From positions 49,560,457 to 49,624,456 of the forward strand of contig NC_083343.1 in the NCBI RefSeq assembly GCF_019175385.1: DNA of 64,000 nucleotides, given 5' to 3'. Below are positions 1,155 to 57,398 of this stretch, in pieces (position 1 is the stretch's first letter; every line of letters starts with the position of its first letter). The stretch comes from Lycium barbarum. Its lineage: Eukaryota > Streptophyta > Magnoliopsida > Solanales > Solanaceae. The translations under genes were made by a program, and so were the position numbers. The notes beneath the pieces were generated by a model. The model made no database searches, had not been told where the DNA came from, and saw only the letters and a list, made by a program, of their open reading frames with translations.

Positions 1155-1211
1155 CAGTACATATTGCGTACTGACCCCCTTTCTTCGGGGGGTTGCGTTT
1201 CATTCCCGCAG
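1155..1211 (+). other. Triple-hairpin block of LTR N1
   Basis: Three adjacent inverted repeats are seen. H1 is CAGTAC...GTACTG (1155-1173), H2 is CCCCC...GGGGG (1175-1191) and H3 is TTGCG...CGCAG (1193-1211, one G-T wobble). The same order and spacing recur in every Tekay-like LTR here that covers this region. Confidence 0.75.
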
Positions 1212-5210: not shown

Positions 5211-5282
5211 ACAAATGAAAAGGGTTTGATTTCATACATGACGTCCATAATAGTTTTTTTTTATGATTTCATGACGCGACTG

Positions 5283-5402
5283 AGCGTGCTATATAACATA
5301 TGGCCTCGGCTTAAGTCCGAGTGTGCTATGGCCTCAGCTTATCTCTGAGTGTGCTATGGCCTCAGCTTATCTCTGAGCGTGCTATATAACATATGGCCTC
5401 AG
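5283..5402 (+). repeat. 28-bp tandem repeat in solo LTR N2
   Basis: Units of about 28 bases with the core GTGCTATGGCCTCAGCTTAT start at 5323 and 5351. Degenerate flanking units carry an extra ATATAACATATGG. Confidence 0.8.
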
Positions 5403-5495
5403 TTTACGTTATGCCAATTGAGTTGTGCATATGGTTTCACTAATAATTTCGAGAAAAATCAGTTTATACTAAAGGAAACATAAAGTTAGACTTTC

Positions 5496-5675
5496 AAAAC
5501 CACTTCGAAGGGGGTGCGAGATTCTACTATTTAGATTCTCAAAACCACTCCGAAGGGGGTGCGAGAATTTACTATTTAGATTTTCAAAACCACTCTGAAG
5601 GGGGTGCGAGATTTTATTATTTAGATTTTCAAAACCACTCCGAAGGGGGGTGCGAGATTTTACTATTTCGTTTCA
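5496..5675 (+). repeat. 45-bp tandem repeat, 4 copies, in solo LTR N2
   Basis: Units begin with AAAACCACTYYGAAGGGGGT at 5496, 5541, 5586 and 5631, an exact 45-base period with few substitutions. Confidence 0.95.
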
Positions 5676-13473: not shown

Positions 13474-13488
13474 TTATCCCCCCCTTAA
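13474..13488 (-). promoter_or_regulatory. Polypurine tract of element B
   Basis: Minus-strand TTAAGGGGGGGATAA lies directly before the 3' LTR. Confidence 0.85.
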
Positions 13489-13704
13489 AAACATTCGTTC
13501 TCGAATGTTAAGTTCTCGAGAATTTTATAGAAATTTTGCCAGAGTTTGCCCTGTAATATTCCACTACCATTCTGTCATAACAACACATAATAACATCGCC
13601 TCATAGGGCTACAACACAATGGAAAGAAAATATGGCCACATACGACCAAAAGCATTAAAAAGAAAGCATTACATACCTTATGATAATGGCGTCTCATCTT
13701 GAAT

Positions 13705-16700
13705 CTATTCCGGGGGTGGAAACAATTGCGGATATTTGGACTTCATTTCTTCTTCTGCTTCCCAAGTCATTTTCTCTCGGTTATTGTTTCTCCACAAGAC
13801 CTTAACCGAGGCTACCTCTTATTTTTAAGTTTTAGTACTTTCCTATCTAGTATGGCAATGGGTACCTTTTCATAAGCCAACTTCTCTGTAACTCGAACAT
13901 CATCTACCGGCATGATCTTGGAAGGATCTCCAACGCACTTACGGAGCATCGACACATGGAAAATCGGATGAACTGGCTCAAGTTCTGAAGGTACGTCCAG
14001 CTCATAAGCCACTTGGCCCACTTTGCGGACAATCTCATAAGGTCCAATATATCGGGGACTAAACTTTCCTTTCTTGCTCAATCTCATTACAACTTTCATC
14101 GGAGACACTTTTAGGAATAAATAATCATCGATTTGAAATTTCAGGTTTTGTCGACGATTGTCTACATATGATTTTTGGTGACTTTGGGCTTTCAACAATC
14201 GGTCTCTAATAAGTTTGATGTTTTCCACCGCTTACTGAATAAAATGGACCTATCAGTTGTGTCTCCCCGACTTCAAACCATCCAATTGGCGACCAACATC
14301 TCCTTCCATACAGAGCTTCATACGGAGCCATCTGGATACTAGAGTGATAACTATTATTATTATAGGCAAATTCTATAAGCGACAAATGTTCATCCCAATT
14401 TCCTCTGAAGTCTAATATACATGCCCGCAACATGTCTTCTAAGGTATGAATAGTACGTTCGGCTTGCCCATCAGTTTGTGGATGAAATGTTGTGCTGAGT
14501 CTCACTTGAGTTCCCAAACCTTCTTGAAAGGATTTCCAGAATTTAGCAGTAAATTGTGCTCCTCTATCTGTGATAATAGACAATGGGACACCATGAAGTC
14601 GCACTATTTCTTTAAGATACAGCCTTGCATAGTCTTCTACTGAATATGTGGTTCTGACTGGAAGAAAATGAGCTGATTTCGTGAGTGTCAACAATCACCC
14701 ATATGAAGTCATACTTGCGCTAGGAACTAGGCAAACCTACAACGAAATCCATGTTGATGAATTCCTATTTCCAGGTTGGAATTTCCATGGCTTGTCATAA
14801 TCCTCCTGGCTTTTGATGCTCAATTTTCACTTGTTGGCAATTTGGACACTGACCTACCAATTCTGCTATATCCTTCTTCATTCCATTCCACCAACATATT
14901 GGCTTAAGATCATGGTACACCTTTGTCGCTCCTGGGTGAATAGAAAAACGGGAACAATGAGCTTCTTCCAAAATCCGATGACGTAGTCCTGCCACATCTG
15001 GCACACACAGCCTGCCTCAATACCTGAGAACTCCATCTGCAGAAACCTCAAATGGTGACTTCTCTTTCTCAGGAAATGTATCTCTATAGTGACTCAACTG
15101 GAAATCTTCATATTGGCGCTCTCTCACCTCCATATCTAAGGATGAAATAGTTTTGTTATGAACAGCAACCCCTGCACTGCCCGAGTCGGTTAAACGAACT
15201 CCTAGGCTAGCTAACTGATGGAGCTCACGAATTAATTCCTTCTTTTCCGGATTAACATCACATAGACTGCCCATGGATTTGCGGCTAAGAGCCTCAACCA
15301 CCACATTTACTTTTCCCGGATGATATAGTATACTCACATCATAATCTTTCAATAATACTAACCATCACCTCTGCCGAAGATTCAACTCCTTCTATTTGAA
15401 GATATACTGGAGACTCTTATGATGTATATAAATATCAACATGTACACCATACAAATAATGTCTCCATATCTTCAATGTCTAGAGCCATAGGCTATAACCT
15501 TCCCATGCTGCATCAACACGCAGCCAAATCCGACACCGGAGGCATCACAATAAAAAACATAACCTTCTAACCCTTCGGGAAGTGTCAGGACTGGGGCCGA
15601 AGTCAATCTATCTTTCAATTCCTTGAAGCTGCGCTCACAAGCATCGGTCCATTGAAGTTTTACTGATTTCGGAGTTAGCTTCGCCAATGGTGCTAAAATA
15701 GAAGAAAACCCTTCCACAAATCTTCTATAGTAACCTGTCAATCCCAGAAAGCTACGAACTTCTATAGGCGTTGTAGGCCTTGGCCAAGTCTTCACGACCT
15801 CGATCTTTTGAGTATCCACGCGAATACCATCAGCTGAGACAATATGGCCATGAAAAGTCATAGAATTCAACCAAAACTCACAATTTGAAAACTTAGCATA
15901 CAATTCACGAGTCCGAAGAATTCCAAGGATGGTACGTAGATGATCCGCATGCTCTGCTTCTGACCGAGAATGAACTATACTATTGTGGATAAATACGATC
16001 ACAAATAGATCTAGAAAAGGCCTGAATACATTATGTATCAAATTCATAAGCACTGCTGGAGTGTTAGTCAACCCAAATGACATCACCCGAAATTCATAAT
16101 GACCATAGCTAGTTCTGAAAGCCATTTTCAGAATGTCTTCCTCCTTGACTCTCACTTGGTGATACCCCGATCTCAAATCAATCTTTGAAAACAACTTGGT
16201 ACCTTGCAATTGATCAAACAAATTTATTCTTGATTGTGACCTTGTTCAACTGTCTATAATCAATGCACATTCGTAGGGAGCCGTCTTTCTTTCTTACAAA
16301 CAAGACGAGTGCTCTGGGCCTAATAAATCCCTTCCCGAGCAAATCTTTCAATTATGTCTTTAGCTCTTTCAATTCTGCAGAATCCATTCTGTGAGAAAGC
16401 ATAGATATAGGCTCGGTGTCAGGCTGAACATCAATGGTAAAATCGATTTCCCTTTCTGGTGAAAGACCTGGAAGTTCATCTGGAAACTCATTTACTACCG
16501 GGATGGATAGAAAAGTCGGCGGCTTTGCTTCAGTGTCATGAACTCGGACGAGATGATAAATATAGCCTTTAGTGATCATCTTCCTTACCTTAAGGTAGGA
16601 AATAAACCTACCTCTTGGGGATGCTATGTTACCCTTCCATTTAAGCATTGGTTCTCCCGAAAATTCGAACCTAACTATCTTCATTCTACAATCCACATTA

Positions 16701-16978
16701 GCATAATAAGAGGCCAACAAATCCATGCCCATAATCACATCAAAATCCAACATTTCTAGTTCAATCAAATCAGCACATACCACAACTGCACAATTTTTGT
16801 ATACTTGTCTAGCTATTACTGTATCACCAACTGGAATAGATACCTTGAAAGGTTTAATTGGCTCAGGTTTGACCCCTATACAACCAACAATATAAGGAAT
16901 GATATAAGACAATATAGAACCTAGATCAATCAATGCATAAACATCACAGGAGAATATGGATAGTATACATGTAACCAC
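13705..16978 (-). pseudogene. pol: Element B pol: protease, RT, RNase H, integrase, chromodomain-like tail
   Basis: Reading leftwards, the protease has the active-site triplet as DLG (in VYALIDLGSILSY, about 16940). RT follows, but its FIDD active site has become FIHN (near 15990), so polymerase activity is lost. RNase H begins YCDASG but lacks about 70 bases after AYGSR near 15480. The integrase zinc finger ([18 protein letters not shown]) lies at 14795-15004 and the core with TDRGAQFT and GQAERT at 14206-14694. The GPY module SPRYIGPYEI is at about 14060. The chromodomain tail runs to 13705 through a frameshift near 13815. Confidence 0.83.
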
Positions 16979-18352
16979 ATCAGAGGAGGACTTAAGATCC
17001 TGACGTCCGGCTAAAGCACAAATACAGGGCAGGGGGCCACCTGAATTGGATGCTACCCCTCTGCCCCTACCACAGCCTGCTGAAGCCTAAGGAGTCTACC
17101 CTACAGAGCGCATGAACGAAGAAGAGCCGGCTGCTGATCCTGTAGGCTAGCCCCGACTTTACCACCTATCGATGGACAATCACACATCATATGCCCAACC
17201 TGACCACAGACATAACAAGCGTCGGAGCCTCGGCAATACAGACCCTAATAAAATCTACCGTACTGGCTGCATCGTGGTAACGGTGGTCTCCTCTGACTAG
17301 GATCACCTCCAAACTGGGAACCCAAAACTCTCAAGCTCTGACCCTATCCTGATTATATGGGGCGGTTAAATCTCCTACCCGCTAACCGAGGAGGTGCACT
17401 AGTCACAGACTGGCCTGAATAGTTGGAATACTATTGCCGCTGACCCCCTCTATACTCACTACTAGCACCGGCAGATCTGGCCCTCTTTCTTTGCCCTCTA
17501 TTAGTATCGCGCTCACCCCTTTGCGGCTGTTGCTGCTCTTCTAAATTCTGGGCGTGGGCCTGAATACGGGAGATGTCTATCCCCTCCACTAGTGAATCTA
17601 TCAAGCAGTCTTTGATCAAATGTGGCCCTAAGCCACTCACAAATCGATGTACTCGGTCTTCCATATCGGCCACCATAGTTGGAGCATACCGGGCCAATGA
17701 ACTAAAACGAAGACTATATTCCCTTGCTTTAGATTCAGAAACATATCAGCTCGAGCCCGACAAACCTCCGGTGGCAAATAAAGGCGGATGAAAGCATCTA
17801 CGAATTCCTGCCAAACTGGGGGAGGTTCATTTTCCTTCCTTGAAGATATCCAATTAGTATACCATAGAACGGCGACATCCCGCAGTCTATAGGATGCTAA
17901 CTCCACTGACTCAGTATCAGAAGTATGTATAATCCTCAGCGTCCTCAACATCTGGTCTATAAAACCCTGTGAGTCTTCATCTGTCTTTGACCCGAAAAAT
18001 TCTGGCGGGTTCAAACTCATAAACACAGGCTCTGGCCCTAGTAGCTCTATCACCCAAACCCACGCCCTGCCGCTGAGCCTGGGCGGTAACTAGCTGAGTC
18101 AATAGCTGAATAGCCTCGGTCATCTGCTGACCCAAAGCACCAGGTGAAGGAACTGGAGGTATTGGAGCTAGTGGGAACTACAGCTATAGCCCCTTCATGC
18201 TCCTCCAAAACAGGCCGAGTGTGAGAGGTATGAGATGGAGCCTCATTGTGGGACTCACCCTCTTCTATATTTGTCGGTGGCTCCGGTTCAACCTGCCTTC
18301 CTGTTGCAGTCTTGTCCTTCTGGGTAGCTGTTGCTTTTCTCTTTATCGGCAT
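16979..18352 (-). pseudogene. gag: Element B gag
   Basis: The chosen start is the ATG at 18352 (MPIKRKATATQKDKT), matching the basic N-terminus of gag in elements C and D. The capsid-like region lies at 17640-18050, with PPEFFGSKTDED and LPPEVCRARADMFLNLKQG. An intact CCHC zinc knuckle, CYVCGQVGHMMCDC, sits at 17161-17220. Frameshifts near 18050, 17690 and 17430 break it. Gag would coat the genomic RNA. Confidence 0.8.
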
Positions 18353-18462
18353 CGCTAAACCCATAACGCACAATTAGGGAAAAAGAAAATCTTATAACAT
18401 AGCTCTATCGCATGATCTTTGAAAAAGAAAAACGGTCATTATTCCTAAATGCCCCGCAACCT

Positions 18463-18502
18463 CTTGTTTATAAGTGTGGTGTACTTTACACCCATAAACA
18501 AG
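18463..18502 (-). ncRNA. Leader hairpin with palindromic loop, element B
   Basis: Minus-strand arms CTTGTTTATGGGTGTA and CACACTTATAAACAAG form a long stem with two central G-U pairs and a mismatch next to the loop. The loop AAGTACAC has only a 4-base palindrome (GTAC), against 6 in C, D, E and F; B is the oldest of these. Confidence 0.7.
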
Positions 18503-18545
18503 ACTCTACTGGACACGGCTCGTAGACACACCCTAGGACGAAAAT

Positions 18546-18557
18546 TCTCTAATAAAA
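18546..18557 (-). promoter_or_regulatory. Degenerate primer-binding site, element B
   Basis: Minus-strand TTTTATTAGAGA stands where the other elements have TGGTATCAGAGC. Several substitutions suggest it can no longer prime. Confidence 0.6.
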
Positions 18558-18561
18558 CTTT

Positions 18562-20316
18562 TGTCACGACCCAACCAATGGGCCATGATGGGTACACGAA
18601 GCTGACTACCGAGAACCACTCATCGTGCTGTCTATCATCCCAAACCAAGGCATACATCATTCTCAACACAAGATTCATCATAAAATGATCATGAATACCT
18701 CCCAAGACATGCATAGACATAAGCCCTCAAGGCCACAAAATGATATACAAAATATATAATGAAGATGATCGCATAGCATCTACAACCCACGCATAAATAT
18801 CTACGAGCCTCGAACTGGAATACCGATATCATAAGGACGGGACAGGGTCCTGCGATGCTCATATATGTACACAAAAGAATATACCATGAAATGGCGACTA
18901 CGGAGTAGTGGAGTGCACTTGCAAATTCACTGTACAAGCTCCTAAGTCTCTGCACCATCTTCATGCCTACCTGTGAGCATGAACACAACGTCAATAAAAG
19001 AAAAGACGTCAGTACGAACAATGTGTTGAGTATGCAAGGCATGTACAACAACATAAGATGAAGAGCAAACCTGTAACTGATTGCCTCTTAAGGCGGAGTC
19101 ATGCATGCTAACTTTTATTATAAAAAAAAATAATATCATATCATACATATATAAGCTGCCCGACCATATAGGTACGGTGTGATCACCATTAGCCCGCGTC
19201 CAGGCCTCCCTCGTCCGGGGTGTAAGCTGCCCACTACAGTGGTGTGTCTGCCCGGCCATGTAGGCATGGTGTGATCATACATAAAAATAACATAAGCATG
19301 CATGGGAGCCCAAGTGAAAGCTACAACTCTATCGCAGTGACGTAAGGTCGGTAACCACCGATTATGTGATGGAATAGTCATGATCGTTATGTCTCACCTT
19401 GAAGGAACTAGTACATGAGGTGAGACTATTAACAAGAAGCAACATCAATGAAGTCATAAAGATAAGAATATCGAGCTCATCATAGCATCATTATCATCAT
19501 CAGTGTCATGGAACATATCTCATCTCTATCTCATAAGAAGACCTTAAGAACCTTTAACCTTCAACTTTTAGGATGCAAGAAGGTCACGAGAATAAAGAAA
19601 AGGAATCGCATTATAAGAGTCATGCCTTTGAAAGGAAGGGACTAGCCTTACATACCTTTACGTCTCTCTAACTTTGCTGACTAAACGCTTTCCTCCAAGT
19701 TCACGATTCTATATTCAAGAGAATTCGTACTAAGATTAGATAAACGGAAACATACTTGAAGCTAAGCTAGGGCGACTAAGGGCTAACGAAAATTGGGTAG
19801 CACTCCTTTTGTTTCTACAACTTTCTCCATAAAATATAACAACTCCAAAAACATCAATAATAACATCCATAATATCATAATCTATAAACTTTGTTAAGCT
19901 AGACATTATTCAATTCTCAAAATTCCCTCTCAAAGTCATCCATAACCATAGTTACCACCCAACGTCATATTCATTCACATATAATGCTTCTTTAACATCC
20001 TTAATATCATTCATAACAAGATTATACCCATAACATGTCAAGAACTATCATTCAAGTCAAGTCACTATTCAAGAATACCACTATTTCCATATTTGAACTC
20101 CATATTCTACTTTCTTCCTCAATCCAAGTCATTCAACCATTCACTACTCTTATTAGCGTAAAATGAATGCAAAAATCACCTTTGATTATGTAGGAATGGG
20201 TTTTGGAAGAAAATACTTCACTTGGAGAAAGCCCAACTTCAACACCAAAGAGATTCTTGGCTTCCCTTAACCCTAGTTAGCGTCTTTGCACTTGATTCCA
20301 CTAATTTTTCGTATTT
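18562..20316 (-). repeat. 5' LTR of element B, truncated by element C
   Basis: On the plus strand it starts TGTCACGACCCAACC at 18562 and aligns with 11326-13096 of the 3' LTR. It breaks off at 20316 where the LTR of element C begins, so its promoter end is missing. TATTT (20312-20316) is the expected left target-site copy for C. The triple-hairpin block is at about 18971-19030, with H1 partly decayed. Confidence 0.85.
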
Positions 20317-22912: not shown

Positions 22913-22924
22913 TGGTATCAGAGA
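22913..22924 (+). promoter_or_regulatory. Primer-binding site of element C (initiator Met-tRNA)
   Basis: TGGTATCAGAGA, four bases after the LTR, matches the plant initiator-methionine tRNA complement except for the last base (C to A). Confidence 0.85.
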
Positions 22925-22967
22925 AGTTCTGTCCTAGGGTGTGTCTACGAGCCATGTCCAGTAGAGC

Positions 22968-23007
22968 CTTGGTTATGGGTGTGTTGCGCGCCACACTTAT
23001 AAACAAG
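22968..23007 (+). ncRNA. Leader hairpin with GCGCGC loop, element C
   Basis: Arms CTTGGTTATGGGTGTG and CACACTTATAAACAAG pair over 16 positions (two G-U pairs, one mismatch). The loop is TTGCGCGC with the self-complementary GCGCGC. It lies 43 bases after the primer site and 110 bases before the gag ATG. Confidence 0.8.
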
Positions 23008-23117
23008 AGGCTGCGGGCATTTTAGGAATGATTGACCTTATTTAATCATAACATCGTGCGATAGAGCTATGATATAAGAACTTCCTTCTGCTTAACTGTG
23101 TATTGTGTATTTCACAG

Positions 23118-23286
23118 ATGCCTGTAAAGAGAAAGGCTACGGCAGCCCAAAAGGGCAAGACTGCTGCGGAAAAGTTGGCTGAAAGAACACCGCCAACAGT
23201 TGTAGAGGAAAGTGCATCCCAGAATGCGGCTCAATCCTAGTCCTCCCAGACAGTGCCTATTTCCGAGGAGTGTGAGGGAGCCTCAA
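23118..23286 (+). pseudogene. gag: Element C gag, N-terminal part
   Basis: It starts MPVKRKATAAQKGKT at 23118, immediately after the acceptor-like TTTCACAG. A stop (TAG) at codon 41, 23238-23240, probably replaced CAG. Without it the frame continues to 23286, where element D is inserted, and is taken up again at 33620 with proline/alanine-rich sequence. No domain is expected in this basic, low-complexity N-terminus. Confidence 0.8.
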
Positions 23287-25630
23287 TGTTACACCTCGGA
23301 AAATTTTCCGTGAGCATACAATGAATAGACCACATAAGAGTATGAGTGTACGATGTTTTACTAAGAAGGGAATGACTACCCATGAGTTTTGAAAACGCGA
23401 AGGTTGCAGATTTGCATTTCGACCCAGTGGTCGTAAAACAAAATACGGCCCGTAAAGTGATTTACGGACCGTAAAGTGCCATCATCTTCCAACTATCAAA
23501 ACTTCAACTTTCTGTCAAATGTTGAAGTGGTTAAATACGACTCAGAATACGGATCGTAAATCAAAATACGGCCCGTAAAATGTAACCGTAAACCACCATG
23601 ACCTACAGCTAACCTTTCTGTTTCTGATATGCTTAAATACGGTCGTGAGGGACGGACCGTAAACTAGAATGGGGCCCGTAAACTTGGTTTACGGCCACTG
23701 TGCATCCCGACTACTGTTCATAAAAATCATATTTTCAAGTTAAGTATACGTGACTCCAAGCTAATTTTATTTCATTTTCTCGTCTTCACAATTCACGAAC
23801 TCTCTAGAATACTCCAAAACACTTCATCCACAAGAATTCAAGAGAATCAACAGAAAATCAAGATCAACAATGCCAAATTCATGAAAACAAGAGTGTGAAA
23901 CCTAGCTCAAGTTCATCTTCCTCAAAGAAAACTAAAAGAGGTGAAGTAGGGTTTTGGTGCTAGAGTAGAGACTCCACTCAAGGCTTGTTCCACCATTATC
24001 CAAGGTAATTTTAATACCATTTCATGTTTTTTAAGGTATTGGAAGGTTAAGATACCCGAATTGTAGAAAAGCATAGCAAATGGGTCATAAATGAGTGAAT
24101 AGTGCCATGAGTGAATGGTAGTTGAATTGAATCATGAATGTTAGTGTGTTCTGAGTATGAATACGTTATAAATGACATGTAGACCATGAGATAAGTGTGA
24201 TACATGAGAAAAAAATGATAGCGAACCCAAAACCATAAATGTGGGAAAAATGAAGAGAAATGGTGGATCATGGTCATTGTATATGAATGATGATTGTTGA
24301 TTGCTATATTGTAATTGTTGTTGTGGGTGTTGGGAGTCGATATGGAATATGGGAAAAGTAGTATAAACAAAGGAAGTGCTGCCCAATTGTCTATAGAAAT
24401 AGTAGTGTGTTCTTATAGTTGATTAACTAACGTTAGTACGAATCCTCTTTTGAAGGTAGAGACGTGACATTGAAGGAGAATAAGCGAACGCTAGATTGCT
24501 TAAATGAGAAAGGTATGTGAGGCTTAACTCTTCTTTCAAAAGGCATGAATCCTTCAAGTTTTCCATAATCCTTCTATAAGATGGAACTTATGAGTCCTTC
24601 TATATATCGAATCACCTATAAGCATGATAATAATGACAGTGAGCTAGAGTATAGGGATTCAAGAAGTTGTGGCACGATGTTCCTCCAATGCTAATGATGT
24701 TATTATTGCTAACACTCGCCTTATGCTTTATTTCCATCAAGGCGAGGCATGATACTCATAAAATGTCCATAATACAATCGGGGGTTCACGACCTTACGTC
24801 ACCCCGATATAGTGTGGTTGCCTTAAAGCCTAATGTATGCTCTTAATTCTAATGTATGCTATGACAAAAAGATGATGAATAATGCTAACTTGTAATATGA
24901 CTATGGGATGCATGGAATACCAAGAAATGATAACATGATGCTATGGCATGAGATGTGTAATAGTGATGTGTTATGATTGATTTTGTGATTATATGTTTCC
25001 ACCGCGCCTATATGGCCGGGCATGTCACCGCTAATGCGGGCTGCGTATGATTCCACCGCGCCTATATGGTCGGGCATGTCACTGCTAATGCGGGCTGCTA
25101 TGTTTACACCGAGCCTAGAGGGCCGGGCATGATCACCACTAGTGGGCGGCATATGAGGGTACCAAGACGCGGGTAACGATGCGGATTACGATGTGAGGAT
25201 GTATGTGATGACATATATGACGTATATGATGATGTATGGGATGTGATAACATGTATACTATGATTTTGTAAAATGTGATATATGTAGAGAGTAGGTTGTC
25301 CATGATATACATTCAGGTTATATCCTTCTCTTATGATTCCTGATCCCTCTATTATGTTTGTTTATTTCATTCCTGCCTTACATACTCAGTACAATATTCG
25401 TACTGACGTCCGTTTTCTTTGGACGCTGTGTTCATGCTCACAGGCAGACAGGGAGGAGATCTTGCTCCAGATTCTTAGAGGCTGTTAGCTAACTGAAAGC
25501 ACCCCATTGTCCTGGAGGTGCCTATGATGATTCTTTTGTGTACAATTCTAGATGTCATCTCATAGAGGCTCATAGATACTCAATGTGGGTCATGTGGTTT
25601 CACGGCGTGGTCATTGTGTGTGTGTGTATA

Positions 25631-25661
<31 letters not shown>

Positions 25662-25845
25662 TATTTTGCTAGCGTAAGGGCTCATGTGTATAAAAACATT
25701 ACGTTTCTAAAGGAAAACAGGTTTTCTTATAAATCGAGCATGAATCTGATAAATAATTATTAAATACGCCTAAGGAGTACTAGTACGAGCGGTGCTCGGC
25801 GGTTATCCCCGGGTACCCGTCACGGCCCCTAGCCGGGTCATGACA
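23287..25845 (+). repeat. 5' LTR of element D
   Basis: 2,559 bp, TGTTACACCTCGG...GGTCATGACA. It has ACGGNCCGTAA-type palindromes at 23434-23706, no clear TATA (weak TTTTATTT at about 23764), and donor-like AAG|GTAATTTT at 24003. AGGTATGTGAGG is at 24511 and the CCTTACGTCACCCCGATA block at about 24791-24808. Three ACCGMGCC...GGCCGGGC modules lie at 25000-25150, the triple hairpin at 25387-25443 and an (AT)n run at 25625-25662. Confidence 0.93.
25387..25443 (+). other. Triple-hairpin block of 5' LTR D
   Basis: H1 is CAGTAC/GTACTG (25387-25405), H2 is CGTCC/GGACG (25407-25425) and H3 is CTGTG/CACAG (25426-25443). H2 and H3 stems differ from N2 on both sides, so pairing is maintained. Confidence 0.8.
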
Positions 25846-25849
25846 AAAG

Positions 25850-25861
25850 TGATATCAAAGC
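25850..25861 (+). promoter_or_regulatory. Primer-binding site of element D, mutated
   Basis: TGATATCAAAGC differs from TGGTATCAGAGC by two G-to-A changes. Confidence 0.8.
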
Positions 25862-25904
25862 AGTTCAGTCCTAGGAAGTGTCTACGAGCCTTGTCTAGTA
25901 GAGT

Positions 25905-25945
25905 CTTGTTTATGGTGTATTGCGCGCCACATCAATAGACAACAG
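25905..25945 (+). ncRNA. Leader hairpin with GCGCGC loop, element D
   Basis: The same position as in C and E. The left arm CTTGTTTATGGTGTA is kept and the loop TTGCGCGC is intact, but the right arm (CACATCAATAGACAACAG) has several changes that weaken pairing. Confidence 0.65.
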
Positions 25946-26050
25946 GCTATAAGGCATTTAGGAAAAATGACCATCTTTCTTCTCAAGAGATGGTGCGATA
26001 GAGCCGTGTGTAAGATTTTATCCTCCCTAATAGTGTGTTATGATTTCACA

Positions 26051-27420
26051 ATGCCGCCAAAGGGAAAAGCTACAGCCGCCCAGAAGGGCAAGACTACGAC
26101 AAAGAGGCGGGTAGAAAGAGAGCCTCCGATGAATATAGAAGAAGGCGAATCACACAATGAGGCCTTGTCTAATACTTCTTCTACCCCGCCTAATGTGGAA
26201 GAGCAAGGAGGAGCTCCAGCTCCAATTCCTCCGCCGGCTGCTTCGGGTCAACAAATGACCGAGGCCATCCAGTTATTGACACAATTGGTTGCCGCACAGG
26301 CACAACGATAGAATGTGGGTTCAAACGATCGGGCAGCAAGTACCAAAGCCCGTGATTTTATGAGTTTAAATCCTCCGGAATTCTTCGGGTCAAAGCCGGA
26401 TGAAGATCTGGAAAGTTTCATTGATGAGATGTTAATGACATTGAAGATTGTCCATGCCTCCGAGATCGAATCTATGGAGTTGTCATCCTATAGACTCTGG
26501 GATGTGGCGGTGTTATGGTACAACAACTGGGTATTATCAAGAGGAGAGAACGCGTCTCCTCCGGTTTGGAAAGAGTTTGTAGATGCTTTTATTCATCACT
26601 ATTTGCCACCCGAGGTCCGCCGAGCTAGAGCGGACAGATTCTTAAATTTGAGGCAAGGAAATATGAGTGCCCGGGAGTATAGCATGCGATTCAATTCTTT
26701 GGCTAGATATACTCCGACTATGGTGGCCGACATGGGAGATCGGGTACATAGATTTGTGAGTCGTTTGGGGCAACATTTATTCAGAGATTGTCTGATGGCT
26801 TCCCTGCAAGACGGGATGGACATTTCTCGGATACAGGGCCATGCTCAGAATTTGGATGGGCGACAACAACAACAAAGGGGTGATCACGACAGTGATAGAA
26901 GACAAAGCAAAAGGGCTAGATCTATGGGCACATGCAGAGATTATAGAGGGGGATCGAGGCAGACTTATTCCCGACATTCAGGCCAATCAGCGACTAGCGC
27001 ACCTTCCAGATTTCCAGATAGAAGATTTGACCACTCGTTTCGCCCGGGACAGGGTCAGAGTTCGAGGGCTTCAGGTTCCCAGTTTAAAGGTGATTATAGT
27101 CAGGGGAGACCCCCAGTTCCACGATGTAGTCGGTGCCGCAAATTACACTCAGGGCCATGTCGTCAGGACACTGATGCTTGTTATGTTTGTGGGCAGACCG
27201 GAAATTTGATGCGAGATTTTCCCTCGCGATATGGCAGAGGTAGGGTCCAGCTCACAGGGTCAGCAGCGGGTTCCTCATCAGCACGCCCAACGGGGCAGAC
27301 TCCCCAGATGATAGCAGGCCGAGGTAGAGGCCGAAGGGCAGCATCTACTTCAGGTGCCACTCAGCCCCGTGTATATGCTTTAGTCGGACGGCAGGATCTT
27401 GAGTCCTCTCCGGATGTGGT
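26051..27420 (+). pseudogene. gag: Element D gag
   Basis: It starts MPPKGKATAAQKGKT at 26051. The N-terminal 85 residues are basic and low-complexity, then TAG at 26309 (CAG in sister copies). Capsid-like sequence follows (SLNPPEFFGSKPDED, LPPEVRRARADRFLNLRQGN), about 26340-26760. The zinc knuckle at about 27178-27220 reads CYVCGQTGNLMRDF: the His and last Cys are lost, so RNA binding would fail. A frameshift near 27420 separates gag from protease, which the family normally encodes in one frame. Confidence 0.87.
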
Positions 27421-30400
27421 TACCTGTTGTCTATATTCTCCCGTGATGTGTATGCACTGATAGATCCGGGTTCTACATTCTCTGATATTACTCCATATGT
27501 TGCTGGTTGTATTGGGGTGAAACCCGAGTCAATTAAAACCGTTGAGGTGCTTACTCCAGTTGGTGATCCCGTGCTAGCAAGACAAGTGTACAAAAATTAT
27601 GTCATTGTGATATGTGATCAACAGACCAAGGCTGATTTGATTGAGCTAGAAATGGTAGATTTCGATGTAATCATGGGTATGGATTAGTTGGCGTCGTGTT
27701 ATGCAAATGTTGATTGCCGCACAAAAGTGGTCCGATTCCAATTTCCAGGAGAGCCCGTGCTTGATTGGAAGGGTCATACAGCATCTCCAACGGGTAGGTT
27801 TATTTCCTACCTTAAGGTGAGGAAGATGATAGCGAAAGGGTATATTTATCATTTAGTTCGAGTACATGACACAGAAGCAAAGTTGCCAACATTTCAATCT
27901 GTTCCAGTGGTGAATGAATTCCCAGATGTGTTTCCAGATGAACTTTCAGGTCTTCCACCAGAAAGAGAAATCGATTTTGCTATTGACGTGTTGCTGGGCA
28001 CCAAGCCTATTTCTATTCCTCCTTATCGAATGGCTCCGGCAGAATTAAAAGAGCTAAAGGTGCAGCTGAAAGACTTGCTCGAGAAAGGATTCATTAGACC
28101 CAGTTCATCACCGTGGGGAGCATCGGTCTTGTTTGTGAGAAAGAAAGACGGATCTCTACGAATGTGTATCGACTACAGGCAATTGAACAAGGTGACGATA
28201 AAGAACAAATATCCTCTTCCAAGGATTGATGATTTATTCGATCAATTGCAAGGTGCCAAGTGGTTTTCTAAAATAGATTTGAGGTCGGGTTACCATCAAG
28301 TAAGAGTTAGAGAAGCGGATATCCCTAAGAAAGCTTTCAGAACGAGATATGACAACTATGAATTTCGAGCGATGTCATTTGGGTTGACTAAAGCCCCAGC
28401 CGTGTTCATGAACTTGATGAATAATGTATTCAGGCCACTCTTGGATTTATTCGTGATAGTATTTATTGATAACATTCTGGTGTATTCTCGCGCAGAATCA
28501 GAACATGCAGATCATTTGCGAATTGTTCTTGGCATTCTCCGAGCCCGAGCAATGTATGCAAAGTTTTCAAAGTGTGAGTTTTGGCTAAATTCTATGACAT
28601 TTCTGGGCCATGTTATTTCAAATGATGGCATTCGAGTCGACACCCAGAAAATTGAAGCGGTGAAAGCTTGGCCAAGGCCCACGATGCCTACAGAAGGTCG
28701 TAGTTTTTTGGGTTTGGCAGGTTATTATCGAAGATTCGTAGAGGGCTTTTCGTCTATTTCAGCCCCATTGACGAAGCTAACCTAGAAGTCAGCAAAGTTT
28801 CAATGGAACGATGCTTGTGAGCGCAGTCTCCAAGAGTTGAAAAACAGGTTGACCTCAGCCCCAGTTCTAACACTTCCAGAAGGGCCAGATGGCTATGTTG
28901 TGTATTGTGAAGCTTCCGGTGTCGGATTGGGATGTGTATTGATGCAGCATGGAAAGGTTATGGCATATGCTTCGAGACAGTTGTGGAAGCATGAAAAGAA
29001 TTACCCAACTCATGATTTCGAACAAGCTGCGGTCATTCATGCCTTAAAAATGTGGAGACATTATTTGTACGGTGTGCACGTCGATATCTATATAGATCAC
29101 AAAAGTCTTAAGTACATCTTCAAGCAAAAGGAGTTGAACCTGCGACAGAGGCGGTGGTTAGAATTATTAAAAGATTATGATGTTAACATTTTATACCACC
29201 TCGGGAAGGCGAATGTAGTAGCCGATGTACTTAGCCGCCGATCAATGGGCAGTTTATGTGATGTCCCTCCGGAAAGGAAAGAGATAGTTCAAGAACTTCA
29301 TTGATTGGCTAATCTTGGAGTGCGTGTAATTGATTCAAGCGATGCCGGGATTAGTATAAGTGATTCCACAATTTCGTCCTTGGATATGGAAGTGAAAGAA
29401 CGGCAGTGTGAAGATCCTCAGTTATGTCGTTATAGAGACACATCTCATGCGAAAGAAAAGTCTCCGTTTGAAGTTTCCATGGATGAGATTCTTAGGTACC
29501 GAGGCAGGTTATGTGTGCCGAATGTGTCGGAAGTGCGCCGACGAATTTTAGACGAAGCACATTGCTCTCGATATTCTATTCACCCAGGTGCAACCAAAAT
29601 GTATCATGGTCTCAAGATGATGTACTGGTGGGATGGCATGAAGAGAGACATAGCAGAATTTGTAGCACAATGTCCAAATTTCCAACAGGTAAAAGCTGAA
29701 CACCAGAAGCCGGGAGGCTTGTTGCAAGCAATGGAAATCCCTACTTGGAAATGGGAAGTGATCAACATGGATTTCATCGTGGGATTACCCCGTTCCCGTG
29801 GCAGGTATGACTCTATATTGGTGATCGTGGATAGGCTGACGAAAGTAGCCCATTTTCTTCCAGTTAGAACCACGTACTCAGCAGAAGACTATGCAAGGTT
29901 GTATCTCAAAGAAATTGTGCGACTCCATGGAATCCCATTATCTATTATCACAAATAGAGGAGCACAGTTTACAGCTAAGTTCTGGAAGTCTTTTCAAGAA
30001 GGTTTGGGCACGCAAGTGAAGTTTAGCACGGCATTTCATCCGCAAACTGATGGGCAGGCCGAGCGTACCATTCAAACCTTGGAAGACATGCTACGGGCGT
30101 GTGTGTTGGATTTCGGTGGTAGCTGGGATGAACACTTACCCCTTATTGAGTTCGCATACAACAATAGCTACCATTCAAGTATACAAATGGCTCCATACGA
30201 AGCTTTATATGGAAGGAAATGCAGATCTCCAATCAGATGGTTTGAAATAGGAGAAGCACAATTAGTGGGCCCTGAATTGATCCAACAAGCGATAGAAAAA
30301 GTCCAGGGGATCCAAGATCGGTTGTTGACAGCCAAAAGTCGCCAAAAGTCCTACGCGGACAACCGCCGATGAGACTTGGAATTTCAAATTAATGATTGGG

Positions 30401-30843
30401 TATTTTTGAAAGTGTCACCCATGAAAGGGGTGATGAGATTTGGTAAGAAAGGGAAGCTAAGTCCCAGATACATTGGACCCTACAAAATCATCCGCAAGGT
30501 AGGTCAGGTAGCCTATGAATTTGATTTGCCTTCGGAGCTTGAATCACTCCATCCAGTCTTTCATGTTTCGATGCTCCGCAAGTGTGTTGGAGATCCAACA
30601 AAGATTGTCCCGATAGATGATGTGCAAGTAACGGAAAGGCTAACCTATGAAGAGGTGCCTATTGCCATCCTAAATAGGCAAGTGCGAAAGCTTCGAAATA
30701 AAGAAGTAGCGTCAGTCAAATTATTGTGGCGAAACAACAATCGGGAAGAAATGACTTGGGAAGCGGAAGAGAATATGGAGTCCAAGTACCCACACTTATT
30801 CCAACCCCCAGGAGAGATCCAAAATGAAACACCAACAAAATAA
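27421..30843 (+). pseudogene. pol: Element D pol: protease, RT, RNase H, integrase, chromodomain-like tail
   Basis: One frame runs from about 27427 to the TAA at 30843, broken by four stops: 27685 (TGG to TAG), 28783 (CAG to TAG), 29302 and 30370 (CGA to TGA). The protease has DPG instead of D(S/T)G. The RT active site is FIDN (28462-28473), second Asp lost. RNase H has YCEASG, first Asp lost. The integrase finger has CPNF for CPNC and the core has TNRGAQFT for DRGAQFT. The GPY motif SPRYIGPYKI and the chromodomain tail (30600-30830) are well kept. Every enzyme is inactive. Confidence 0.88.
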
Positions 30844-31038
30844 GGTATGTATGCTTTATCTTTATGCTTTTGGTCGTGTGTGGCCATAGGTATGTCGATG
30901 TAGTGATGTAGCCCTGTGAGGCAGTGATGTGATATTATGGGTTGTTGTTACAGGATGGTAGTGCCATATTATAAAGGAAACTTTGGCGAAGTTTTTCTAG
31001 AATCCCCGATGATCTAACATTCGAGGACGAATGTTCCC
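30844..31038 (+). other. Element D 3' untranslated region
   Basis: Non-coding, with GCCCTGTGAGGCAGTG near 30910 and the inverted repeat ACATTCGAGGACGAATGT at about 31016-31033, just before the polypurine tract. Confidence 0.75.
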
Positions 31039-31053
31039 AAAAGGGGGGAAGAA
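31039..31053 (+). promoter_or_regulatory. Polypurine tract of element D
   Basis: AAAAGGGGGGAAGAA lies directly before the 3' LTR. Confidence 0.92.
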
Positions 31054-33614
31054 TGTTACACCTCGAAAAATTTTCCATGAGCATACAATGAATAGACCAA
31101 CGAAGAGTATGAGTGTATGATGTTTTACTAAGAAGGGAATGACTACCCATGAGTTTTGAAAACGCGAAGGTTGCAGATTTGCATTTCGACCCAGTGGTCG
31201 TAAAACAAAATACAGGCCGTAAAGTGATTTTCGGACCATAAAGTGCCATCGTCTTCCAACTATCAAAACTTCAACTTTCTGTCAAATGTTGAAGTGGTTA
31301 AATACGACTCAGAATACGGACCGTAAATCGAAATACGACCCGTAAACTGTGATCGTAAACCACCATGACCTACAGCAAAGCTTTCTGTTTCTGATATGCT
31401 TAAACACGGTCATGAGGGACGGATCGTAAACCAGAATACGACCCGTAAAATGGGTTTATGGCCACTGTACATCCCGACTACTGTTCACAAAAATTAGATT
31501 TTCAAGTTAAGTATAAGGGACCCCAAGCTCTTTTTATTTCATTTTCTCATCTTCACAATTCAAGAACTCTCTAGAATACTCCAAAACACTTCATCCACAA
31601 GAATTCAAGAGAATCAAGGGAAAATCAAGATCAACAACGCCAAATTCATGAAAACAAGAGTGTGAAACCTAGCTCAAGTTCATCTTCCTCAAAGAAAACA
31701 GAAAGAGGTGAAGTAGGGTTGTGGTACTAGAGTAGGGACTCCACTCAAGGCTTATTCCACCATCATCCAAGGTAAGTTTCATGACCATTTCATTTTGTTT
31801 AAGGTATTGGAAAGTTAAGATATCCGAATTGTAGAAAAGCATAGCAAATGGGTCATAAATGAGTGAATAGTGCCATGAGTGAATGGTAGTTGAATTGAAT
31901 CATGAATGTTAGTGTGTTATGAGTATGAATACATTATAAATGACATGTAGACCATGAGATAAGTGTGATACATGAGAAAAAAATGATAGCGAACCCAAAA
32001 TCATAAATGTGGGAAAAATGAAGAGAAATGGTGGATTATGGTCATTGTATATGAATGATGATTGTTGATTGCTATATTGTAATTGTTTTTGTGGGTGTTG
32101 GGAGTCAATATGGAATATGGGAAAAGTAGTATAAACAAAGGAAGTACTGCCCAATTGTCTCTAGAAATAGTAGTGCGTTCTTATAGTTGATTAACTAACG
32201 TTAGTACGAATCCTCTTTTGAAGGTAGAGACGTGACATTGAAGGAGAATAAGCGAACGCTAGATTGCTTAAATGAGAAAGTTATGTGAGGCTTAACTCTT
32301 CTTTCAAAAGGCTTGAATCCTTCAAGTTTTCCATAATCCTTCTATAAGATGGAGCTTATGAGTCCTTCTATATATCGAATCACCTATAAGCATGATAATA
32401 ATGACAATGAGCTAGAGTATAGGGATTCAAGAAGTTGTGGCACGATGTTCCTCCAATGCTAATGATGTTATTATTGCTAACACTCGCCTTATGCTTTATT
32501 TCCATCAAGGCGAGGCATGATACTCATAAAATGTCCATAATACAATCGGGGGTTCACGACCTTACGTCACCCCGATATAGTGTGGTTGCCTTAAAGCCTA
32601 ATGTATGCTCTTAATTCTAATGTATGCTATGACAAAAAGATGATGAATAATGCTAACTTGTAATATGACTATGGGATGCATTGAATACCAAGAAATTATA
32701 ACATGATGCTATGGCATAAGATGTGTAATAGTGATGTGTTATGATTGATTTTGTGATGATATGATTCCACCGCGCCTATATGGCCGGGCGTCTCACCGCT
32801 AATGTGGGCTGCATATGATTCCACCGCGCCTATATGGCCGGGCATGTCACCACTAATGTGGGCTGCTATATTTACACCGAGCCTAGAGGGCCGGGCATGA
32901 TCACCACTAGTGGGCGGCATATGAGGGTACCCGGACGCGGGTAACGATGCGGATTACGATGTGAGGATGTATGTGATGACGTACATGACGTATATGATGA
33001 TGTATGTGATGATGTATGGGATGTGGTAACATGTATACTATGATTTTGTAAAATGTGATATATGTAGAGACTAGGTTGTCCGTGATATACATTCAGGTTA
33101 TATCCTTCTCTCATGATTCCTGATCCCTCTATTATGTTTGTTTATTTCATTCCTGCCTTACATACTCAGTACAATATTCGTACTGACGTTCGTTTTACGC
33201 TGTGTTCATGCTCACAGGTAGATAGGCAGGAGATCTTGCTCCAGATTCTTAGAGGCTGTTAGCTGACTGAAAGCACCCCATTATCCTGGAGGTGCCTATG
33301 ATGATTCTTTTGTGTACAATTGTAGATGTCATCTCATAGAGGCTCATAGATACTCAATGTGGGTCATGTGGTTTCACGGCATGGTCATTGTGTGTGTGTA
33401 TATATATGTATATATATATATATATATATATTATTTTTCTAGCTTAAGGGCTCATGTGTATAAAAACATTACGTTTCTAAAGGAAAACAGGTATTCTTAT
33501 AAATCGAGGATGAATCTGATAAATGATTGTTAAATACGCCTAAGGAGTACTAGTACGAGCGGTGCTCGGCGGTTAGCCCCGGGTACCCGTCAAGGCCCCT
33601 AGCCGGTCGTGACA
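31054..33614 (+). repeat. 3' LTR of element D
   Basis: 2,561 bp, colinear with 23287-25845. The triple hairpin at 33167-33217 keeps H1 and H3, but a small deletion removed most of the right arm of H2. AAG|GTAAGTTTC at 31769 is a better donor consensus than in the 5' copy. No gene. Confidence 0.93.
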
Positions 33615-34830
33615 CTCAGCCCCAGCTCTAGCACCTCCGGCACCTCCACCGGATGCTTCAGGCCAAGATGTAAAAGAGGCCATTCATTTGCTTACTCAAT
33701 TGGTTGCTGCTCAGACTCAGTGGCAAAGTACAGGGTAAGGTAATAGGACCGTTAGTGCAATGGCCGTGACTTCATTAGCTTGAACCTTCCGAAATTCTTT
33801 GGATCAAAGCCGGATGAGGACCCTCTGAATTTTATCGATGGAATGTTGAGGACGCTTCGTTTGATACATGCTTCAAACACCGAATCAGTGGAGTTAGCTT
33901 TCTATAGATTGAGGGATGTTGCAGTTCATTGGTACACGGTTTGGATGGCTTCACGGGGAGCCAATGCACCTCCCCCGATATGGCAAGAGTTTGTTGATGC
34001 TTTCCTCCGACATTATTTGCCTCCAGAAGTTAGGCGAGCTAGAGCCGATAAGTTCTTGAATTTGAGGCAAGGAAACATGAGTGCTCTAGAGTATAGTCTC
34101 CGCTTTAATTCATTGGCTAGGTATGCTTCGGCCACGGTAGTGGATATGGGTGACCGGGTACACCGATTCGTGAAGGTCTTAGGGCCACATTTGATGGATA
34201 GGTGCTTGACTGCGTCCCTTCAGGACAACATGGATATTTCACGCATTCAAGCCCATGCTCAAAATTTAGAAGAAAGTCTACAACAACAAAGAAGTGAACG
34301 TGAGCATGATAGGGGACATAGAAAGAGGGCTAGATATTCGGGTCCGATGAGTGAGTTTAGAGGCGGGCACAGACAACAGTTTTCTAGGAAATCAGGCCTT
34401 TCTATGACTAGTGCGCCCCCACGGTTTTCAGGCCAGAGATTTGATAGATCTACTCATTCTAGGCCGAGTCAGAGTTTTTCGGGGTCTCAGTTCAGGGTTG
34501 ATTTGGGTCAGGCGAGGCCACCCATACCACGATGTTCCCAGTGTGGGAAGGTACATTGGGGTCAGTGCCAATCGGGTTCAGAGCTTTGTTATTCATGTGG
34601 CCAACCGGGCCATATTATGCGTGACTGCCCCTCGATTCATGGTAGAGGTAGGACCCAACCTTCAGGGTCGGTAGCCGGATCTTCATCGTCTGTACGCCCT
34701 ATGGGGCCAGGTTCACATGCGCCAGTCGGCCATGGTAGAGGCAGAGGGAGAGTCCCCAATTCTAGCGGTCATCAGCACCGTATTTATGCTTTGGTTGGAC
34801 GCCAAGATCTTGAGTCTTCTCCTGATGTGG
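33615..34830 (+). pseudogene. gag: Element C gag, remainder
   Basis: This continues 23286 after element D. A proline-rich stretch, a stop near 33737 and a frameshift near 33770 precede the capsid-like region (LPKFFGSKPDED, 33783 on; LPPEVRRARADKFLNLRQGN, about 34018). An intact zinc knuckle, CYSCGQPGHIMRDC, lies at about 34586-34628, preceded by CSQCGKVHWGQC. An arginine/glutamine-rich linker separates them. Confidence 0.85.
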
Positions 34831-37800
34831 TCACAGGTATATTATCGGTATTTTCTCATGATGTATATGCTTTGATATATCCGAGCTCCACATTGTCATA
34901 TGTTACTCCATATATTGCGCATCGATTTAGAGTCGAACCGGAGTCGATCAAACCTTTTGAGGTGTCTACACCCGTTGTTGAATCGGTAATAGCTACCCGA
35001 GTATATAGAAACTGTATAGTTCTGATTTGTGACCATCGTACTATGGTTGACTTGCATGAGCTAAAAATGGTAGACTTTGATATTATTATGGGCATGGATT
35101 GGTTGGCTTCTTGCTATGCCAATGTTGATTGTAGAATGAAAATAGTTCGTTTCCAATTTCTGGGAGAACCGGCTTTAGAATGAAAAGGGAATACTGCGTC
35201 ACCAAAAGGTAGGTTTATTTCCTATCTAAAGGCAAGGAAAATGATCACGAAAGGATGCATTTATCATCTATTTCGGGTTCAAGATGTAGAAGCTGAACCG
35301 CCGACTTTTCAGTCAGTTCCCGTAATAAATGAATTTCCGGATATGTTCCCGGAAGAGCTTTCAGGCCTCCCTCCTGAGCGGGAGATTGATTTTGCTATTG
35401 ATGTGTTGCCAGACACTAAACCTATATCTGTCCCTCCTTATAGAATGGCTCCCGCAGAATTGAAGGAGTTGAAGGAGAAATTGAAAGACTTGCTTGAGAA
35501 AGGCTTTATTAGGCCTAGTTCGTCCCCGTGGGGAGCACCCGTATTGTTTGTCCGAAAGAAAGATGGCTCCTTGAGAATGTGTATTGACTATCGGCAATTG
35601 AATAAGGTGACGATTAAGAACAAATACCCTCTTCCGAGGATTGATGACATATTTGATCAATTACAAGGCGCCAAATGATTTTCAAAGATCGATGTGAGGT
35701 CCGGGTATCATCAAGTGAGAGTTAGGGAAAAAGATATCCCTAAGACAGCCTTCAGAACAAGATATGTCCATTTTGAGTTCCGGGTAATGTCATTTGGGCT
35801 AACTAATGCATCGGCAGTATTTATGGATTTGATGAACAACGTGTTCAGGCCCTTCCTAGACCTATTTGTGATTGTATTCGTCGATAATATCATGGTGTAC
35901 TCTAGATCCGAGGCAGAACATGCGGATCATTTGTGTACTGTCCTTGGTTGAACTCAGTGACATTTTCGGGGAACGTTGTTACAGCCGATAGTATTCGGGT
36001 AGATAGCCAAAAGATTGAGGCCGTGAAGACTTGGCCAAGGCCCGCAACTCCTACGGAGGTTCGTAGCTTTCTGGGTTTAGCAGGTAATTACAGGAGGGTT
36101 TTTCTTTTATTTCTGCACCACTCACAAAGTTGACCCAGAAATCAGCAAAGTTCCAATGGACAGATGCTTGTGAACGTAGTTTCCAAGAGTTAAAAGATAG
36201 ATTGACTTCTGCCCCAGTCTTGACACTTCCAGAGGGATTGGAAGGATATGTTGTTTATTGCGATGCTTCAGACATTGGGCTAGGTTGTGTGTTAATGAAA
36301 CATGGTAAAGTGATTGCATATGCTTCAAGGCAATTACGGAGACATGAGAAAAATTATCCAACCCATGATCTAGAATTGGCCGCAGTGGTTCATGCATTAA
36401 AGATATGGAGACATCATTTATATGGTGTCCATGTGGATATTTATACAGATCCTAAGAGTCTTCAGTATATCTTCAAGCAGAAAGATTTGAATTTGCGGCA
36501 ACGACGATGGTTGGAATTTTTAAAGGATTATGATATTGATAGCCTATATCACCCCGGAAAGGCAAATATCGTGGCTGACGCTCTTAACCGCAGATCTATG
36601 GGAAGTTTGAATGATGTAACACCAGAGAAAAGAGAAATGGCTCGTGAGCTCCAGCAGTTAGCTAGCCTAGGAGTTCGAATAGTGGACTCAGGTAGTAGGG
36701 GAACTACCATTCAGAATTCAGCAGTCTCGTCGCTAGTAGCGGAGGTGAAAGAGCGACAACACGAAGATTCCATGCTAATGCTTTACAAAGATACACTCCC
36801 TCAGAAGGAGGAGTCATCATTTGAGATTTCAAAAGACGGAGTTCTCCGATGCCGAGGCAGATTATGTGTTCCTAATGTGGTAGGTTTACGCCACCAAATA
36901 TTGAGAGAAGCTCATTGTTCCCGTTATTATGTTCACCCTGGAGAGACAAAAATGTACCACAATCTTAAATCTATATATTGGTGGAATGGGATGAAGAAAG
37001 ATGTAGCGGAATTCGTAGCTAAATGTCCCAACTGTCAACAAGTGAAAATCAAGCACCAAAAGCTGGGCGGATTGTTGCAAGCTATAGAAATTCCAACTTA
37101 GAAATGGGAAGTAATTAACATGGATTTAAATACAGGTTTACCCCGTTCTCGACGTAAGTATGATTCTATATGGGTGATTGTGGATAGACTCACGAAGTCG
37201 TCTCATTTCTTACCAGTCAGAATGACATATGTGGCGGAAGATTATGCAAAGCTTTATGTTAAAGAGATAGTACGACTCCATGGTGTCCCAGCATCTATTT
37301 TCTCTCATAGAGGGACTCAGTTTACAGCTAATTTTTGGAAGTCCTTCCAAGAGGGTTTAGGGACCCAAGTGAGCCTTAGCACGACATTTCATTCGCAAAC
37401 TGATGGACAAGCTAAATTCACCATTTAGACTCTTGAAGATATGTTACGGGCATGTATAATGGATTTCGGAGGTAATTGGGATGATCACTTGCCACTCATT
37501 GAATTTGCTTATAACAATAGTTATCATTCTAGCATTCAAATGGCACCGTATGAGGCTCTATATGGGCGAAAGTGTAGATCCCCAATTGGGTGGTTTGAGG
37601 TAGGAGAGACTAAGTTGATAGGGCCAGACTTGGTCCAGCAAGGCATAGAGAAAGTCAAGCTCATACAAGATCGGTTATTAGCAGCCCAAAGTCGTCAAAA
37701 GTCCTAGGATAATCGTCGAAAGGACTTAGAGTTCCAAGTGAAAGATTGGGTATTCTTGAAAGTGTCACCAATGAAGGGTGTAATGAGATTTGGCAAAAAG

Positions 37801-54207: not shown

Positions 54208-54219
54208 TGGTATCAGAGC
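54208..54219 (+). promoter_or_regulatory. Primer-binding site of element E (initiator Met-tRNA)
   Basis: A perfect TGGTATCAGAGC, four bases after the LTR. Confidence 0.92.
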
Positions 54220-54262
54220 AGTTCCGTCCTAGGGTGTGTCTACGAGCTGTGTCTAGTAGAGT

Positions 54263-54302
54263 CTTGTTTATGGGTGTGAAGCGCGCCACACTTATAAACA
54301 AG
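54263..54302 (+). ncRNA. Leader hairpin with GCGCGC loop, element E
   Basis: The best-preserved copy. Arms CTTGTTTATGGGTGTG and CACACTTATAAACAAG pair at all 16 positions (two as G-U) around the loop AAGCGCGC. It begins 43 bases after the primer site. Confidence 0.85.
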
Positions 54303-54417
54303 AAGCTGTGGGGAATTTAGGAAAATGACCATTCTTCTACTTATTAGATCGTGCCAATAGAGCCATGTTATACGATTTTCTCCTCCCTATTGGTGCGTTA
54401 TGATTTCAGCAAGGCTA

Positions 54418-57228: not shown

Positions 57229-57240
57229 TGGTATCAGAGC
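57229..57240 (+). promoter_or_regulatory. Primer-binding site of element F (initiator Met-tRNA)
   Basis: A perfect TGGTATCAGAGC, four bases after the LTR. Confidence 0.92.
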
Positions 57241-57281
57241 AGTTCATCCTCGGAGTGTCTACAAACCGTGTCTAGTAGAGT

Positions 57282-57321
57282 CTTGTTTATCGGTGTTTTG
57301 TGCACCACATCTATAAACAGG
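57282..57321 (+). ncRNA. Leader hairpin with GTGCAC loop, element F
   Basis: Arms CTTGTTTATCGGTGTT and CACATCTATAAACAGG pair at 14 of 16 positions including wobbles. The loop TTGTGCAC has the palindrome GTGCAC in place of GCGCGC, two changes that keep self-complementarity. Confidence 0.78.
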
Positions 57322-57398
57322 AAGCTACAAGACATTTAGGATGTCATCTTTCCTTCTGTCTTAGATCGTGTGATAGAGCCAGAACCTAGGAAAGATTG

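Follow-up and report, generated by a model that had tools for sequence, protein, structure and literature searches.

How the two genomic RNAs of a plant long terminal repeat (LTR) retrotransposon are brought together is a question raised by a 64-kb stretch of the 1.67-Gb Lycium barbarum genome (C7:49560457-49624456, the window hereafter). LTR retrotransposons account for a large part of many plant genomes, and little is known about how they select and pair their RNAs. Self-comparison reveals a window crowded with nested Ty3/gypsy elements, five of which (B, C, D, E and F) carry a hairpin in the leader between the primer binding site (PBS) and gag, capped by a six-base word that is palindromic in C, D, E and F. 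Comparison of these leaders with their relatives makes it quite likely that in plant chromovirus-type Ty3/gypsy retrotransposons the hairpin serves as a kissing-loop dimerisation initiation site. The palindrome has been kept while the word itself was replaced between families, as GCGCGC, GTGCAC, GACGTC and, in one copy, GAGCTC.

All five hairpins lie where an initial annotation of the sequence had placed them, with the loops it had reported. A covariance model built from the five copies returns ten matches in the window, namely the five sense elements (84-96 bits) and their antisense counterparts (16-38 bits). Each element is 75 nt long and starts 36-38 nt past the start of the PBS (36-40 nt if L093, a leader from neighbouring DNA, is included). 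Above a lower stem and a small internal loop stand an upper stem of at most 16 pairs and the apical loop, so that the hairpin caps a longer stem, spanning about 68 nt, shortly downstream of the PBS. The apical loop comprises two unpaired bases followed by the 6-nt word (8 nt if the closing pair forms). In C, the element occupies 22951..23025 on the plus strand, with the upper stem at 22968-23007 and the loop TT-GCGCGC (core 22986-22991); its PBS, TGGTATCAGAG at 22913..22923 (+), is of the initiator-tRNA-Met type. Element D has the same loop (25888..25961, +; core 25922-25927), a 5' stem side one base short and a PBS with two mismatches (25850..25860, +). The E copy (54246..54320, +; PBS 54208..54218, +) carries AA-GCGCGC (core 54281-54286), and all 16 positions of its upper stem are paired, in agreement with the initial annotation. 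The F leader (57265..57339, +; PBS 57229..57239, +) carries TT-GTGCAC (core 57300-57305). On the minus strand, B (18445..18519) has the non-palindromic loop AA-GTACAC (core 18479-18484) and a degenerate PBS, read by eye with three mismatches (18547..18557, -).

The consensus of the five copies folds at -26.6 kcal/mol, compared with -9.4 +/- 2.6 for 1000 column shuffles, none of which is as low (z -6.5). Among ten 75-column segments scanned, three hairpin-centred ones reach z -3.8 to -6.8 and the remaining seven z 0.2 or above. Folded singly, the copies give z -5.2 (B), -2.9 (C), -2.2 (D), -4.6 (E) and -5.5 (F). The loop-closing pair is mismatched in B, D and F; the mismatch in F is private to the window copy, as the pair is G-C in 20/20 relatives. 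No Rfam family scores above its gathering threshold anywhere in the window, and the C leader at E <=10 yields a chance-level MIR400 match alone. A second conserved block (TCGTGCGATAGAGC type, window 23051-23066) stands in the otherwise variable 3' leader. It may pair with conserved sequence immediately 5' of the hairpin (22941-22950) as a long-range closing stem (alignment columns 53-62 and 164-180).

Further families were found in a contiguous 50 kb beginning 5.5 kb beyond the window, a stretch chosen irrespective of loop, where six model matches less two antisense ones leave four sense-strand elements. L092 is F-like and carries GTGCAC, and L089 is C-like with a decayed loop, GCACGC. The leader of L093 (6757-6831, 49 bits) has the loop AT-GAGCTC and an exact TGGTATCAGAGC starting 40 nt upstream. 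That of L091 (6776-6850, 28.9 bits) has the loop GA-GACGTC; a PBS sought with up to three edits was not found in L091, and downstream come a stretch resembling a gag knuckle (18.0 bits, under the cut-off), protease, RNase H and a reverse transcriptase piece that is 61% like that of D across 36 residues. Both L091 and L093 have stems and palindromes unlike those of the other families, in the same register. At least 39 relatives of the L091 leader exist in this genome; among the 20 fetched, GACGTC occurs in 12, GATGTC in four and four other words once each, and GACGTC is the state of this family.

The initial annotation had argued chiefly from the two differences between GCGCGC and GTGCAC, which preserve self-complementarity. 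A single transition in each of two CpGs separates these words, and half of all double CpG decays that could occur leave a palindrome, so this argument needed testing beyond the window, which by itself allows two CpG decays. Loop words were therefore read in relatives from the same genome. Initial candidates numbered 1665-5613 per query, and the best 40 were scored for each of five queries; of these, 28 were fetched for C, 30 for E and 30 for B (window copies included), and 20 each for F and L091 (query copy excluded). The C, E and B set had held 99 model matches, from which 11 antisense copies of the inverted repeat were removed first, leaving 88. Similarity to the query, its loop among the compared bases, set the rank of the copies, so the fractions are biased towards the query loop; for B the bias runs the other way. 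GCGCGC is the commonest loop of this set (57/88), and 60/88 carry some palindrome. Non-palindromic loops in most relatives had been named beforehand as a finding that would count against the annotation. Palindromes prevail among relatives of C (22/28) and E (25/30), as they do for F and L091, and are the minority among those of B (13/30).

If the loop differences reflected CpG decay after insertion, the palindromes would be leftovers. Single CpG transitions are indeed common, accounting for most loop deviations among the relatives of C, E and B, and the GTACAC of B is itself decayed, from a family in which AA-GCGCGC is the loop most often seen. The relatives of F and L091 do not fit such a history. 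GTGCAC occurs in 19/20 F relatives (GTGCAT in the other) and in L092, and is therefore an inherited, family-level state and not decay, which upholds the argument from preserved self-complementarity at the level of families. GACGTC, found in 12/20 L091 relatives, is a family state as well, and both GACGTC and GAGCTC are separated from GCGCGC by transversions. On the loops of the F and L091 relatives pure CpG decay was rejected, and it is very improbable as the source of the palindromes. As isolated words, GCGCGC, GUGCAC and the GUACAC of B have self-duplex energies of -10.9, -7.9 and -5.0, respectively.

Covariation is a further test, and one that the initial annotation had proposed. Stem pairing fits 93% of cells in the five window copies, compared with 36-56% in slid registers. 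Their covariation is not significant, as 161/500 shuffles reach the score, so the window alone provides no covariation proof of structure, and the five-copy result was rejected as such. Covariation emerges with nine representatives, the five window copies together with L089, L091, L092 and L093. Here the stem scores 0.309 (shuffles 0.234 +/- 0.021, 0/500; slid registers 0.09-0.17) and has 13 two-sided cells where 4.9 are expected (0/500). When the loop halves are treated as pairs, the score is 0.593 (shuffles 0.118 +/- 0.082, 0/500; slid registers 0-0.19), with six two-sided cells compared with 1.4 (0/500). Loop position 2/5 is C-G in four rows, U-A in three and A-U in two, and position 1/6 is invariant. 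Of the 75 columns, the one that opens the loop register (column 36) is where four different palindromes begin, and every other column has at most one; permuting the halves of the six distinct hexamers yields four palindromes in 1.1% of cases. A conserved leader element with a self-complementary loop, as first described, is thus borne out by two further palindromes in register and by the covarying stem and loop halves. Three features expected of a retroviral-type dimerisation site are present: a 5'-leader hairpin, a palindrome with compensatory change and stem covariation.

A structured hairpin could also serve packaging, Gag binding, translation or export, its loop word being kept for a protein and not for contact between RNAs. 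Stem conservation alone is compatible with such a role, and kissing-loop motifs that act intramolecularly are known from MTE, the musD export element of mouse (PMC12786077). Binding by a protein should hold the sequence constant, yet the word varies while self-complementarity stays, transversions included (GAGCTC, GACGTC), which counts against this alternative and leaves it unlikely.

Short predicted peptide records happen to translate such leaders, and through them the hairpin reaches further lineages. Matches were accepted to E = 10 (16/38 below 1e-3), and 31/38 have a readable loop; among the others, P0002, P0013 and P0015 end early, P0021, P0023 and P0029 are off frame and P0036 is unrelated. 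An in-register palindrome is permitted by 28/31 loops. By distinct loop triplet, 7/10 permit one where permutation gives 3.0 (p 0.007). The count is 8/12 when the window's triplets are added and B is scored as broken (p 0.010), and 8/10 of the record triplets fit when wobble is permitted (p 0.023). By distinct string, 16/19 permit a palindrome in the correct register compared with 0-13 in slid ones, a count that treats the triplet of B as compatible although its DNA is non-palindromic. Triplets absent from all query rows permit one in 4/7 cases, compared with about 0.26 per random triplet. The words permitted by the peptide readings are GTGCAC, GCGCGC, GCCGGC, TCGCGA and TTGCAA. In one lineage (P0001, P0004 and P0010) the loop reads K-P-A; with AAG for K and CCG for P it would spell GCCGGC, another candidate palindrome. 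The full set of 16 stem pairs can form in 18/31 records, and 12-15 pairs in the others; the matches were found by likeness, so these stem counts are not independent evidence.

Alternatively, the conserved block could be a coding upstream open reading frame (ORF; MGV-K/L-...-TLINK...), with the palindrome as a by-product. B, C and E share a 16-codon ORF with its ATG inside the stem and the same TAG as its stop (22975-23025, +, in C; 54270-54320, +, in E; 18445-18495, -, in B). In F the ATG is missing, and in D the frame is altered. Where it can be read (21/31 records), the distance from PBS to hairpin is 54-73 nt with all three frames represented, which argues against coding. A coding origin was rejected on these three grounds and is scarcely credible. 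A protein search with the leader frame of B gave no result.

Several observations weigh against a dimerisation site. The D copy is weak: its own lowest-energy fold is a different one, and the stability of its best 45-mer is matched by 8% of window 45-mers. L093 and L091 singly fold just modestly below shuffles (z -1.8 each), the predicted L091 fold places part of the palindrome in intra-hairpin pairs, and GAGCTC is known from the single L093 copy. Among B relatives, of which 13/30 are palindromic, 3/8 of those with two or more changes carry a palindrome, so decay alone can produce one; two of these three (L063 and L064) are identical over 75 bases. In the nine representatives, stem pairs with two-sided change number seven compared with 4.3 (31/500 shuffles) and stem pair types show no excess (393/500); the loop gives two such pairs compared with 0.9 (44/500), and its pair types are reached in 194/500. 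The shuffle tests also disregard the relatedness of the copies. In the peptide records, the triplets KCA, NCA and SRH (one record each) permit no palindrome, and in fixed register KCT records allow just 13-14 of the 16 stem pairs, P0011 13 and P0026 12. Lastly, C, D and F lack the purines that flank the HIV-1 word.

If the hairpin is a dimerisation site, these elements probably pair their RNA genomes loop to loop. Two genomic RNAs would meet through 6-bp loop-loop pairing of identical words, the zinc-knuckle domain of Gag would then convert the stems to an extended duplex, and Gag would package the dimer into a virus-like particle, where it would supply reverse transcriptase with two templates. 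The loop word might further act as a tag of family identity, a speculative idea with a rather low chance of being right, in which co-resident families use mutually non-pairing palindromes (GCGCGC, GTGCAC, GACGTC, GAGCTC). Dimerisation, packaging and recombination would then take place chiefly among genomes of the same family, and a switch of word would be part of how a new family arises. The short defined element, its many copies and its natural compensatory variants make dimerisation directly testable in vitro. Retrovirus-like dimer initiation would thereby extend to plant Ty3/gypsy elements, and the element could be used to recognise the leaders of families that have otherwise diverged.

The host elements provide the coding context. 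Pieces in the window encode gag with a CCHC knuckle, protease, reverse transcriptase, RNase H and integrase. Element D retains both LTRs (23285..33614, +; LTRs 23285-25845 and 31052-33614, 94.9% alike) and appears to have inserted into the gag region of C. The LTRs of C (+) start at about 20465 (5') and 38363 (3') and are 94.2% alike across 1.2 kb aligned; its gag-protease ORF (33780..35183, +) includes a CCHC zinc knuckle, a candidate RNA chaperone of the dimer. B (about 11328-20316, -) has LTRs 90% alike, and E and F retain an LTR-like stretch and leader. The C-terminus of pol in D (30373..30840, +) scores as a chromodomain (25.8 bits, Pfam cut-off 25.1); those of C (22.3 bits) and element A (15.0 bits) fall under the cut-off. 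The Ty3/gypsy domain set together with a chromodomain points to chromoviruses. The Tekay label of the initial annotation is plausible, and the window data reach as far as a chromodomain-bearing Ty3/gypsy element. In A, an LTR-like stretch (window 570-1738) 80% alike that of F joins pol-like sequence directly at about 1738, with PBS, leader and gag all absent between them. Outside the five leaders, two copies of a direct repeat of some 670 bases, 80% alike, lie at 45044-45710 and 49112-49761.

Elsewhere, contigs of viruses and of prokaryote genomes, scanned by protein and by DNA pattern, gave no result, and neither did a search for the leader in plasmids and phages. The leader's DNA letters are matched in two papers listed, both CRISPR or short hairpin RNA screens. 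Among the matches listed, mainly open-licence papers, none describes such a conserved site for plant Ty3/gypsy elements. In a term search, a December 2025 review of the plant LTR retrotransposon life cycle contains neither 'dimeriz' nor 'packaging signal' (PMC12786077), and a paper on quadruplexes in plant elements names the retroviral dimerisation site as background alone (PMC3902901).

A close likeness in form is to the SL1 hairpin of HIV-1, an element with a lower stem and an internal loop. In both, a hairpin lying after the PBS and before gag carries a 6-nt palindrome in its apical loop, and both use GCGCGC and GUGCAC (PMC5874298). The words that HIV-1 favours, GCGCGC, GUGCAC and GUGCGC, have two G-C pairs at their centre (PMC5874298); three of the four plant words share the central GC, whereas GACGTC has a central CG. 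KCA, if read as GTGCGC, would equal the third HIV-1 word. Position and words thus justify the earlier description 'HIV-1-like', and the flanks do not: the plant loop is 8 nt, with two bases 5' of the word and none 3', and these are TT in C, D and F, AA in E and B, GA in L091 and AT in L093. Purine flanks are a trait of HIV-1 and not of this kind of site. Sequence homology with SL1 is not claimed, and dimerisation is inferred.

Within the Ty3/gypsy group, the palindrome PAL6 (CUGCAG) of Ty3 likewise occupies the apical part of a short hairpin, for which a kissing-loop model exists (PMC11381356). Dimerisation through paired initiator tRNAs bound to the PBS, with the hairpin incidental, has been proposed for Ty3 and Ty1 (PMC4974528, PMC11381356), and the plant leaders have the same primer type; such a route leaves the covarying palindrome unexplained, the Ty3 authors now prefer the palindrome (PMC11381356), and it is most improbable here. 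A kissing-loop site in the plant leaders would still differ from PAL6, which lies inside the gag ORF (nt 391-396), in being located near the PBS and conserved across families.

Ty1 is a Copia-type element of yeast. Kissing-loop palindromes of other sequence have been proposed for its dimerisation (PMC5454406, PMC4974528), so that it resembles the plant elements as an LTR retrotransposon with palindromes. For BARE2 of barley, also a plant LTR retrotransposon but of the Copia superfamily, conserved dimerisation and packaging signals are stated (PMC3735527). The kind of site is thus already known from retroviruses, Ty1, Ty3 and the BARE2 claim, and the plant Ty3/gypsy hairpin, with its natural compensatory variants, would be a new member of it.
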